From the NCBI GenBank assembly GCA_030041075.1, contig JASHOP010000090.1, forward strand, positions 1 to 32,288: DNA of 32,288 bases. Direction: 5' to 3'. The stretch comes from Thermoplasmata archaeon. Lineage in GTDB: Archaea; Thermoplasmatota; Thermoplasmata; Lutacidiplasmatales; UBA184. The notes under the pieces were generated by a model. The model was not told where the DNA came from. It made no database searches and was given only the letters and a program-made list of their open reading frames with translations. This document shows, piece after piece, positions 5,329-8,276 of this stretch. Both the position numbers and the translations under genes were made by a program. Each line of letters opens with the position of its first letter. Positions within the stretch are counted from its first letter, which is position 1.

Positions 5329-6561
5329 TCAGCGGAACCGGAGCCCGGGGAACGTGCGCCGCCAGGCGCGAGCCTCCCGTCCGACGGACTCGGACCGGAG
5401 GCCCCCCCGGACGATCAGGTCGGCGAGGCGGGGCATGTCGCCCGGGGTCAGGCCGAGCCGCGTCGCCTCCGCGGTCCCGATCCGGCCTACGAGGTCGATC
5501 AGGAGCCCCTGGCGCTCGAGCCGGCGGGCGAGGGCGGCGGGTCCGACGGCGCCGGCCGCCCGGAGCCGCGGCCGGTCGACGTGGAGCTGGTGCGATCGGG
5601 TGAACCCGTCCGACCGGGCGACCAGCGGTAGACCGTTCGCCTCGAGCGCGGCGCCGAGGGCCCGGGCGTTCGCGACGACCGTCCGCGCGTACTCGCCGCC
5701 GAACCGCTCGAGCTCGAGGATCGTCTGGGCGAGGCCCGCGATCCGGTTCCAGTGCGCATTGTCGAACACCCGCCAGACCAGCGCCGGGTCGATCTGGCCG
5801 AACAGGTCGTCGCGGTCGGTGGCGATGATCCCGCCCTGGGGTCCCGGGAACGACTTGTGGGTGCTCCCGAACAGCACGTCCGCCCCCTCGCGCAGCGGGT
5901 CCTGGAACTCGCCCCCGGCGATCAGCCCGAGGACGTGGGAGGCGTCGTACAGCACGAGCGCGCCGACCGAGTGCGCCGCCTCGGCGATCGCGGCCAGCGG
6001 GTAGGGGAAGAGGAAGAAGCTCTGGCCGAGGACGACCGCCTGGGGGCGTTCCCGGACGATCTCGCGGCTCGCCGCCTCCGCGTCGACGCGGAACCCGGGG
6101 CCGTCCGCCGGCAGCGGCCGGACCGTGTGCCCCAGCAGCGCCGGGACGAACCCCGGCGCGTAGCCGTCGTAGCCGCCCTGCTCGGGCGGGATCGCGAGCA
6201 GCCGGGACCGAGGCGGGAGCAGGGGCGCGAGCACGGAGAGCGCCGCGACGTGGCCCGAGAGCGGCCGGGTCGTCGCGTGGCGGGCCCGGAAGAGCCGGGC
6301 GGCGGCCGCGTTGGCCAGCGCCTCGATCCGGTCGGTGTAGCGGGTCCCCGTGTAGCTGTTGTCGATCGTCTCGCCGTCGATCCGGGTCTCGATCGGCAGC
6401 GTGTAGCGTCCCGCGAGGTCGCTGCCGAGGTAGCGGCGCGCGGTCGGCGAGAGGGCGTTCTCGCTCGGGAGGAGGTTGAACACCTCGCGACCGCGCCAGC
6501 GGTCGTGCGCCCGGACGAGCCGGGCGAGCCGCGCCTCGTCGTCAGTCGTCGGCGGGTCCAT
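5329..6561 (-). CDS. glyA: Serine hydroxymethyltransferase-like PLP enzyme
   Basis: Fold-type I PLP enzyme of 410 aa, expected to interconvert serine and glycine with a tetrahydropterin cofactor. The Schiff-base lysine is K236 in GSTHKSFPGPQGG. The cofactor Asp-x-x-His is D206-H209 in YDASHVLGLIAGG. The block GEFQDPLREGADVLFGSTHK closely follows methanogen GlyA. The N-terminus has LPSENALSP (residues 31-39), the SHMT SEN motif. The usual YAEGxPGKRxYxG loop is replaced by a longer segment (about 50-75) in which only Y70-x-G72 seems kept, so substrate range could differ. It overlaps the end of csl4 by 20 bp, suggesting translational coupling. Alternative call: an SHMT-related aldolase. Confidence 0.85.
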   Translation of the reverse strand: MDPPTTDDEARLARLVRAHDRWRGREVFNLLPSENALSPTARRYLGSDLAGRYTLPIETRIDGETIDNSYTGTRYTDRIEALANAAAARLFRARHATTRPLSGHVAALSVLAPLLPPRSRLLAIPPEQGGYDGYAPGFVPALLGHTVRPLPADGPGFRVDAEAASREIVRERPQAVVLGQSFFLFPYPLAAIAEAAHSVGALVLYDASHVLGLIAGGEFQDPLREGADVLFGSTHKSFPGPQGGIIATDRDDLFGQIDPALVWRVFDNAHWNRIAGLAQTILELERFGGEYARTVVANARALGAALEANGLPLVARSDGFTRSHQLHVDRPRLRAAGAVGPAALARRLERQGLLIDLVGRIGTAEATRLGLTPGDMPRLADLIVRGGLRSESVGREARAWRRTFPGLRFR

Positions 6562-7135
6562 GCGCGCCGGGGCGGAGCGGCCGGGGTCCCTTCGCCAGCT
6601 TGCGCCGCTCGGTGTGTCCGCACCGCGGGCAGACGAGCTCCTTCGGACCGAGGGTCAAGAGCGCGTGGCACGCCTGGCACCGGGCGGAGACGACGCCCAG
6701 GGTCGCGGCCGCCGTGCTGAGCTTGATCGACGGGTGGGACTGGAGGACCCGGCAGAGGAGGATGTCCCCGACCGCGAACTCGCCCTGGAGGGTCTCCGTG
6801 TAGCCCTCCTTCGCCTTCGAGATGTGCACCGTCCCCTCCGGGAAGCCGGGCACGGGGCGCTTGCTCGTCGCGGTCGCGAGGACCTCGACGATCGCCATCG
6901 CGGTCTTGATCTCCTCGACGCGCGCGTAGACGAGGTCGTCCTCGCGGACCTCGGGGACGGCGTTACGGGCCTCGATGCGGACGGTCCGGTCCCGGGGATC
7001 GACCGCGGGCTGCCCGAGCACCGACGCGTAGATCCGGCCCCGGTCCTCGTACGTCCCCCGTCCGGGGAGGAACTGCTCGGCCGCCCCGAGATAGTCCCCG
7101 GGGAGGACGAGCTTCGGCAGCTCCGGATCGCTCAT
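6542..7135 (-). CDS. csl4: Exosome RNA-binding subunit Csl4
   Basis: Cap subunit of the archaeal RNA exosome, a 197-aa protein that recruits RNA and DnaG to the Rrp41-Rrp42 core. The N-terminal domain carries LVLPGDYLG and FLPGRGTYE at residues 9-30, typical Csl4 text. An S1 RNA-binding domain spans about 63-140 (GTVHISKAKEGYTE, then VGDILLCRVL). A zinc ribbon follows with C153-x2-C156 and C169-x2-C172. The basic C-terminal tail is unconserved. Its ATG overlaps the stop of the upstream methyltransferase gene by 4 bp (ATGA), and its end overlaps glyA, so the three look translationally coupled. The Rrp41/Rrp42 genes are not in the window. Confidence 0.94.
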   Translation of the reverse strand: MSDPELPKLVLPGDYLGAAEQFLPGRGTYEDRGRIYASVLGQPAVDPRDRTVRIEARNAVPEVREDDLVYARVEEIKTAMAIVEVLATATSKRPVPGFPEGTVHISKAKEGYTETLQGEFAVGDILLCRVLQSHPSIKLSTAAATLGVVSARCQACHALLTLGPKELVCPRCGHTERRKLAKGPRPLRPGAHGPADD

Positions 7136-7743
7136 CGGTCGCCCTCCGTTCGGATCGCCCAGAGGTCGACGTCAAGCGGAACCCGCGACCGGGCGTGGTG
7201 CGCGAACGTTCGCGGCAACGCCCAGGGTACCGGCTCCACCCCGACGACTTGAGCGGCGCGTGCGACCGCGCCCCGCGCTATAAAGCTTCGGGAGGCGCCG
7301 AGGGCGAACGCGTAGATGCTGCGCGTCGCGCGGGCGTACGCGGCGTCCCAGAACGGCCGATCGGCATGGCGCGTCTGCGCGCCGAACGGCGGGTTCATCA
7401 GCACGATCTCGACGCGCTCCGGCGCCGCGGAGACGTCCCCCGACCGGAACGCGACGCGCGCGCCCAGCGACCGCGCCGACGCGCGGGCGACGGAGACCGC
7501 GGAGCGATCGACGTCGATCGCGACGACGGGGTCCGCGCCGAGCAGCGCCGCGCCGATCGCGAGCCGCCCGGTCCCGCATCCCAGGTCGGCCACCGCACGG
7601 CCGGCGAGGCCGTCCAGCCGGTCGGCGGTCGCGAGGAGCGTCGCCGCCGCCTCGGCCGGGGTGACGACCTGCTCGAGGTCGGCGCGGGGGTGGGGGAACG
7701 GAGGTACCCGTTCCAGCAGGCGGACGAGCTCCGAGCGTCGCAC
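7132..7743 (-). CDS. METTL5-like N6-adenine RNA methyltransferase
   Basis: Class I SAM-dependent methyltransferase of 203 aa. SAM motif I is DLGCGTGRLAIGA (residues 53-65), an acidic ribose-binding residue sits in VVAIDVD, and the catalytic NPPF tetrad is N117-P118-P119-F120. An N-terminal LEQVVTPAEAAATLL matches the LEQYxTPA signature of archaeal METTL5 homologues. Eukaryotic METTL5 modifies one adenine of 18S rRNA, so small-subunit rRNA is the likely target (family knowledge). It starts with GTG and no TATA-like box is visible in the 61 bp between it and the tRNA, so it may be read from the promoter of the PRC-barrel gene through the tRNA. It overlaps csl4 by 4 bp. Confidence 0.87.
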   Translation of the reverse strand: MRRSELVRLLERVPPFPHPRADLEQVVTPAEAAATLLATADRLDGLAGRAVADLGCGTGRLAIGAALLGADPVVAIDVDRSAVSVARASARSLGARVAFRSGDVSAAPERVEIVLMNPPFGAQTRHADRPFWDAAYARATRSIYAFALGASRSFIARGAVARAAQVVGVEPVPWALPRTFAHHARSRVPLDVDLWAIRTEGDR

Positions 7744-7804: not shown

Positions 7805-7913
7805 TGCGGGGAGCCGGATTTGAACCGGCGAACGCCTGACGCGACAGGATCTCTCCGGGGGGTTTCGCCCCCCGTTTAAGTCCTGCGCCGTTACCGGGCT
7901 TGGCTATCCCCGC
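7805..7913 (-). tRNA. tRNA-Leu (anticodon UAA) with an intron in the anticodon loop
   Basis: Read by hand on the minus strand. The acceptor stem GCGGGGA (7913-7907) pairs with TCCCCGC (7812-7806), with discriminator A at 7805 and no encoded CCA. The D arm is GCC...GGC. The anticodon stem CAGGA/TCCTG closes a loop that, after removing 24 nt, reads CTTAAAA with anticodon TAA. A 15-nt variable region (class II, as expected for Leu) precedes the T arm GCCGG-TTCAAAT-CCGGC. The mature tRNA is 85 nt. It starts 5 bp after the stop of the PRC-barrel gene, with no AT-rich box at the usual distance, so it is probably processed from a longer transcript. Confidence 0.93.
7851..7874 (-). other. 24-nt tRNA-Leu intron at position 37/38
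   Basis: The insertion in the anticodon loop contains a seven-pair hairpin, CGGGGGG and CCCCCCG around a CGAAA loop, followed by GAGAG. Next to the anticodon stem, CTT can pair with GAG (one G-U pair), leaving three-base bulges AAA and AGA on opposite strands. This is a slightly relaxed bulge-helix-bulge of the kind cut by archaeal tRNA splicing endonuclease. Exact ends could shift by one or two bases. Confidence 0.8.
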
Positions 7914-7918
7914 GCCGG

Positions 7919-8215
7919 TCAGCGCGCGGGAACGGCGTCTTCCTCAGCCGGGGCGGGGCGGGCCGGGGCCTTCTTCAGCGAGACCCGCTTCGGGAAGTAC
8001 TTGAGGAGGACCACATCGTTCACCGCCGCGACCCAGCGGTACGGGACGTTGGTGGCGCGCGAGTCGTCCACTAACATGGGGCTCGTCTCGCCCACGTAGA
8101 GACCGTCGATCTTGGACCCCTCCACGTCGACGACGACGTTGTCGACCTCGCCGAGAAGCCGTCCGTCCGGCGTGTAGATCTGGCGCCCCATGAGTTCGGT
8201 CATTTCGACGAGCAT
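7919..8215 (-). CDS. PRC-barrel domain protein
   Basis: Small 98-aa protein with a PRC-barrel fold over residues about 5-75: LMGRQIYTPDGRLLGEVDNVVVD followed by KIDGLYVGE (shown in part). The first segment is the typical domain opening. A basic/Pro/Ala tail follows (KKAPARPAPAEE). PRC-barrels occur in ribosome maturation factor RimM, photosynthetic reaction centre H subunits and many small archaeal proteins; in archaea some affect cell division, but no specific role can be set here. Start options are ATG at 8215 or ATG at 8203, the latter giving MTELMGRQ. A TATA-like box at 8251-8256 favours a short leader before 8215. The tRNA-Leu follows after 5 bp. Confidence 0.8.
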   Translation of the reverse strand: MLVEMTELMGRQIYTPDGRLLGEVDNVVVDVEGSKIDGLYVGETSPMLVDDSRATNVPYRWVAAVNDVVLLKYFPKRVSLKKAPARPAPAEEDAVPAR

Positions 8216-8248
8216 CGCCTGTTCCCGCGGCCCGCGACGCGGCTCGAC

Positions 8249-8276
8249 CTTCTTATGCCTTTGGGCGGAAAGGCAT
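8249..8276 (-). promoter_or_regulatory. TATA-like box overlapped by a perfect 8-bp-arm inverted repeat
   Basis: On the minus strand CATAAGAA (about 8257-8250) lies about 38 nt before the ATG at 8215. The arms atgccttt (8255-8262) and aaaggcat (8269-8276) are perfect complements around six bases, and the left arm runs into the TATA-like box. This position suits an operator covering the TFB/TBP site. It could instead be a stem-loop behind the ligase gene, but no T-run follows. Confidence 0.5.

Follow-up and report, generated by a model that had tools for sequence, protein, structure and literature searches.

The window analysed here, a stretch of 32,288 nt, belongs to a 1.6-Mb MAG of the Lutacidiplasma (UBA184) family of the Thermoplasmata; GTDB lists as its relatives Thermoplasmata MAGs, among them UBA184, UBA61 and Candidatus Lutacidiplasma silvani, and the order Lutacidiplasmatales is one of acid soils (PMC9287336). 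The locus is read on the minus strand, with the following features in the direction of transcription:

8248-8268, minus strand: BRE/TATA-like promoter element CCGCCCAAAGGCATAAGAAGG upstream of the PRC gene (core AAAGGCATAA at 8253-8262; 14.4 bits with the tRNA promoter motif)
7919-8215, minus strand: gene for a PRC-barrel (CdpB-like) protein of 98 aa (Pfam PF05239, 3e-8; PDB 8qzo/8onw, E 6e-13)
8072-8074, minus strand: UUA codon 48 of PRC, the sole UUA in the gene and cognate to the downstream tRNA (codon comparison)
7914-7918, minus strand: 5-nt gap from the PRC stop to the tRNA 5' end, the putative RNase P site (sequence; at most 13 nt in 85/89 relatives)
7805-7913, minus strand: tRNA-Leu(UAA) gene with intron (RF00005, 48.1 bits; ARAGORN -i; R1, 92.9 bits)
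7876-7878, minus strand: anticodon UAA (Rfam RF00005 match and ARAGORN -i)
7851-7874, minus strand: 24-nt intron at 37/38 whose bulge-helix-bulge is relaxed, with three of the four central pairs (RF00005, ARAGORN, 89-member comparison)
7132-7743, minus strand: gene for a METTL5-like N6-adenine methyltransferase (PDB METTL5 6h2u, 4e-21; 1wy7, 8e-30)
6542-7135, minus strand: gene for exosome subunit csl4, sharing a 4-nt overlap with METTL5 (NCBIfam NF034126, 1.6e-48)

Once the 24 nt at 37/38 are removed, positions 7913 to 7805 give the complete fold of an archaeal intron-containing tRNA-Leu(UAA), and the region has a fold z-score of -3.8. ARAGORN recovers the gene, with its 24-nt intron, when introns are allowed and misses it when they are not; the intron-bearing tRNA-Leu(UAA) proposed in the initial annotation is confirmed. 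Several relatives were called tRNA-Ser, tRNA-Pro or tRNA-Ala by ARAGORN; these calls were discarded because the introns had been joined wrongly in sequences that are tRNA-Leu(UAA). A search of plasmid DNA gave no match.

Comparison of the 89 family members pairs the end of the intron with the anticodon loop through C32-G (89/89), U33-R (87/89) and U34-R (84/89), with A35-U in 9/89 and a 3' bulge reading AG^A in 77. The central helix has three pairs in the window, as was initially described, and likewise in 75/89 relatives, with four pairs in 8/89; the canonical 3-4-3 motif of two 3-nt bulges and a four-pair helix is not formed by the window tRNA. Because single-sequence MFE folding of the window tRNA prefers three pairs in another register, the register is taken from the comparison, which supports splicing at 37/38, the central helix having three pairs in most members and the full four in eight. 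Moving the intron to 36/37 would bring back G37 but was rejected: seven relatives would acquire U37 (AT^A in five, GT^A in two), and C32-G22 pairing holds in 89/89. With splicing at 37/38, residue 37 (window position 7875) would be A in the mature tRNA of 84/89 members. Every intronless tRNA-Leu(UAA) seen from other Thermoplasmata families has G37, and m1G37 modification would be lost with A37.

The host genome contains an RNase P RNA and a 354-aa ORF in which PF01974 and PF02778 each match two stretches, a predicted two-domain splicing endonuclease resembling the alpha'2 type (two domains per chain, one of them putatively catalytic). The 37/38 site, the alpha'2-type endonuclease and the 3-nt bulges are common to this locus and to known archaeal bulge-helix-bulge tRNA introns (PMC6379350, PMC7714728), whereas the three standard central pairs of most members differ from the strict motif that alpha'2 enzymes, with their narrow specificity, reportedly require (PMC6379350).

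The protein identities first proposed for the neighbours, namely PRC-barrel protein, methyltransferase and Csl4, were borne out by homology, which returned a PRC protein, a SAM-methyltransferase and Csl4. The PRC protein appears to be of CdpB type by its homology to PDB entries 8qzo and 8onw (E 6e-13 to 5.5e-11), which we take to be archaeal CdpB structures. The position of the tRNA between the PRC-barrel stop and the METTL5-like start also stands, 5 nt past the former and 61 nt before the GTG at 7743.

In a family sample of 103 genomes, PRC orthologues were found in 92 and their surroundings searched with a tRNA-Leu model; three loci (L072, L235, L236) that end or are broken at contig ends were left out, and 89 were readable past PRC. 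Comparison of these shows an intron-bearing tRNA-Leu(UAA) directly 3' of PRC, on the same strand, in 89/89 loci of seven genera, across a gap that is usually 4 nt: 1-13 nt in 84 loci, 17-20 nt in four and a 10-nt overlap in one. Within the window's genus the gap is 1-6 nt in 62/66 loci (exactly 4 nt in 35 of them), and outside it 3-17 nt. The overlap occurs in L178 (G077), where the PRC frame runs into the tRNA and RNase P cleavage would take away the stop codon. METTL5 lies downstream of the tRNA in 79/88 loci. Because some nine species have lost it there while PRC and the tRNA have never been separated, METTL5 linkage is, from these gene orders, not the conserved core of the locus; the PRC-tRNA pair is intact in several species (L073-L075) where METTL5 sits elsewhere. 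Outside the family, none of the PRC orthologues examined stands beside a tRNA-Leu(UAA); that tRNA is intronless there and has its own AT-rich box upstream in most families sampled. In a sister family (f2; L082, L083), a tRNA-Thr(CGU) lies divergently just upstream of the PRC orthologue.

A promoter motif (AAAGGCTTAA-like) was learned solely from the 22 other tRNAs of the host genome, and weak promoters may escape it. At these tRNAs, an AT-rich box stands some 26-38 nt before the gene (AT content of 0.58 at -31..-26, vs 0.24 at the tRNA linked to PRC, taken across species), and 18/22 score at least 6.7 with the motif. Upstream of PRC the motif has a median of 12.7 bits and reaches at least 8 bits in 75/82 species. 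It reaches 8 bits in none of 82 species in the 75 nt before the linked tRNA, and it occurs in 0/89 inside the PRC region from -150 to -66 relative to the tRNA, the pattern of a dicistronic mRNA-tRNA transcript with no promoter between ORF and tRNA. Before METTL5 it is recognisable in just 2/69, and the tRNA is followed by no T-run of six or more and no T-tract terminator. On this comparison, PRC and the tRNA very probably share one transcript and, because the motif stands before PRC while it is lacking before the tRNA, inside PRC and mostly before METTL5, with no T-run to end transcription, the promoter at 8248-8268 most likely serves PRC, the tRNA and often METTL5-csl4. The impression that the tRNA lacks any visible promoter of its own is thus placed on a quantitative footing, and its proposed excision from an mRNA gains strong support from the family-wide adjacency to PRC together with the lack of a proximal or internal promoter. 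The further suggestion, that maturation splits the METTL5-csl4 message off that of PRC, is possible: the frequent METTL5 linkage, the scarcity of promoters before METTL5 and the missing terminator favour it, and the species without METTL5 at the locus speak against it as the conserved core.

The most informative feature of the locus, missed by the initial annotation, is the UUA codon in PRC. In these high-GC genomes, the background frequency of UUA lies near 0.57 per 1000 codons (46/81,083 codons, counted over 226 genes of 20 sampled stretches of 20 kb, the genes being called by a crude GC3 rule), and the other ORFs of the PRC-tRNA loci hold 9 in 19,831 codons. PRC has a UUA in 83/89 species, against 4.3 expected from its number of leucines, an excess of about 20-fold. 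The codon lies at position 47 or 48 and nowhere else in 72 species, with a second UUA in 0/72. Among the 17 species without UUA at 47/48, 11 have a single UUA elsewhere, where 0.69 would be expected (binomial 5e-12, counting species); when collapsed to lineages, which were grouped by position and genus and with no tree, the count is 7/11 (binomial 5e-8). Outside codon 48, the positions occupied are 9, 29, 39, 47, 70, 71, 96 and 101-104. Six species lack a UUA in PRC, some of them with a tight gap (e.g. L078, L079). PRC paralogues of the same genus have UUA in 0/20, the unlinked PRC orthologues of 20 outgroup genomes of lower GC (0.36-0.60) have it in 6/20 and never at 47/48, and it is absent from the ORF that stands before tRNA-Leu(UAA) in sister family f2. 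The idea that a local DNA or RNA element causes the TTA at codon 48 was rejected, since the codon relocates, and so was a general AT bias of PRC, since other A/T-ending codons show no similar enrichment; the rare codons TTT, AAA, ATA and AGA are not enriched in PRC. Comparison of the species shows retention of the codon, and the simplest account is that selection keeps one UUA somewhere in PRC rather than a local element.

Because a promoterless tRNA stands a few bases past a gene that keeps almost exactly one UUA, the best reading is that the two form a self-coupled unit: translation of PRC would sense the supply of the tRNA freed from the same RNA, and this direction of coupling is the one that we infer. 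We give functional coupling of PRC translation and tRNA-Leu(UAA) within one transcript a probability of roughly 0.55. The single strong promoter would produce PRC and tRNA-Leu(UAA) as one transcription unit; RNase P would cut 4-5 nt past the PRC stop, leaving the PRC message its stop codon, and the tRNA would be completed by a 3' tRNA endonuclease cutting before METTL5 and by the splicing endonuclease taking out the intron. Since PRC keeps one UUA, its translation would depend on the tRNA released from its own RNA. With little charged tRNA-Leu(UAA) available, ribosomes would stall at the UUA, and folding and cleavage of the tRNA part could proceed unhindered; with an ample supply, they would arrive at the stop codon and their footprint would mask the nearby RNase P site. 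As a tentative extension, which we hold with less than even confidence, the transcript may be an autogenous regulator, in which translation reaching the PRC stop represses tRNA maturation and which thereby gauges and sets its own level of tRNA-Leu(UAA). The ribosome footprint extends about 12-15 nt past the A site, and this step would fit gaps no longer than about 13 nt. Two observations from the sequence comparison weaken it: six species lack UUA, and four loci have gaps of 17-20 nt, which exceed most of the footprint, and yet keep the UUA. Leader-peptide attenuation of the trp, his and leu operons offers a parallel, as cognate codons in an upstream ORF sense charged tRNA there; enrichment of the cognate codon upstream is found here as well, and could likewise sense charged tRNA and control the downstream part. 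Here, however, the upstream ORF specifies a conserved protein of 98 aa, and what would be controlled is the tRNA itself.

The bldA gene of Streptomyces encodes a tRNA-Leu(UAA) in a high-GC genome in which UUA is rare, as a separate gene acting in trans. High GC, rare UUA and a tRNA-Leu(UAA) that could gate UUA genes recur here, whereas the tRNA and the UUA gene form one unit and about 15% of the sampled genes have a UUA. Gating of the same kind with no feedback, PRC being made only when tRNA-Leu(UAA) is available, would make the linkage one of joint production and leave the gap without a role. Such gating fits the persistence of so rare a codon in PRC, its relocation in several lineages and its retention in species with wider gaps, but would leave the 4-nt spacing and the promoterless tRNA of every genus unexplained, and we consider it unlikely.

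The locus could also be a plain dicistronic operon in which the tRNA serves as punctuation in the PRC (and METTL5-csl4) mRNA and the UUA is incidental. The secG-leuU transcript of E. coli is a dicistronic mRNA-tRNA of this kind. In T. kodakarensis, a tRNA-Lys in the 5'-UTR of TK0306 is cut from protein-coding RNA (PMC4247193), and in Haloferax, where 39/52 tRNAs have a proximal start, one tRNA-Gly is suspected to come from protein-coding RNA (PMC4983044). The likeness to the T. kodakarensis and E. coli cases is a tRNA without its own start, which would be cut from protein-coding RNA; in contrast to the 5'-UTR tRNA of T. kodakarensis, the tRNA here lies 1-13 nt past the 3' end of an ORF, family-wide, and that ORF holds a cognate rare codon. 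Other tRNAs abut ORFs as well, about 6/30 in the sister-family genome G037 and 2-3/30 in G051. This precedent lends the plain operon some plausibility, but a UUA excess limited to linked PRC, with the codon reappearing at other positions, makes it improbable. The dicistronic arrangement is thus of a known kind, and family-wide fixation together with the cognate rare codon sets the PRC-tRNA pair apart; our search of open PMC papers found no other pairing of a tRNA with an ORF bearing its cognate rare codon, which does not prove absence.

Further abutting tRNAs were observed. In f2 (L237, L238, L240, L241, L246, L247), tRNA-Leu(UAA), (UAG) and (CAG) directly follow or overlap zinc ribbon, CorA-like and HypB-like ORFs, whose stops lie as far as 39 nt within the tRNA. 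In two different families (L354, L382), a gene identified by eye as ribosomal protein S3Ae is followed, after 1 and 8 nt, by an intron-bearing tRNA. In G037 (L335, L355), a tRNA-Thr(GGU) begins 1 nt past a NAC-like gene, and a zinc/helix-hairpin ORF precedes an intron-bearing tRNA-Tyr by 2 nt.

Separate transcription of the tRNA from a cryptic promoter within the PRC coding sequence could draw on the AT-richer codons about 62 and 90 nt upstream of the tRNA and on the frequency of internal starts in archaea, but is very improbable, as nothing before the tRNA reaches 8 bits with the tRNA promoter motif (0/82 and 0/89), while 18/22 other tRNAs score at least 6.7. Least probable of all is that the UUA, as a rare codon before a structured RNA, merely slows ribosomes while the nascent tRNA folds, its decoding identity being irrelevant, since of the rare codons only the cognate UUA is enriched.

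These results suggest that in an uncultured acid-soil archaeal family a tRNA-Leu(UAA) and a message read with the help of that tRNA form one self-coupled unit. How the supply of rare tRNAs is matched to demand in cells is a largely open question, above all in archaea, and a conserved unit that combines a single promoter and protein ORF with one cognate rare codon and its tRNA would make it directly testable through the change of a single codon. The relocating cognate codon is an evolutionary signature that can be sought in other mRNA-embedded tRNAs, and the linkage to PRC connects tRNA-Leu(UAA) with a protein of cell-division type.
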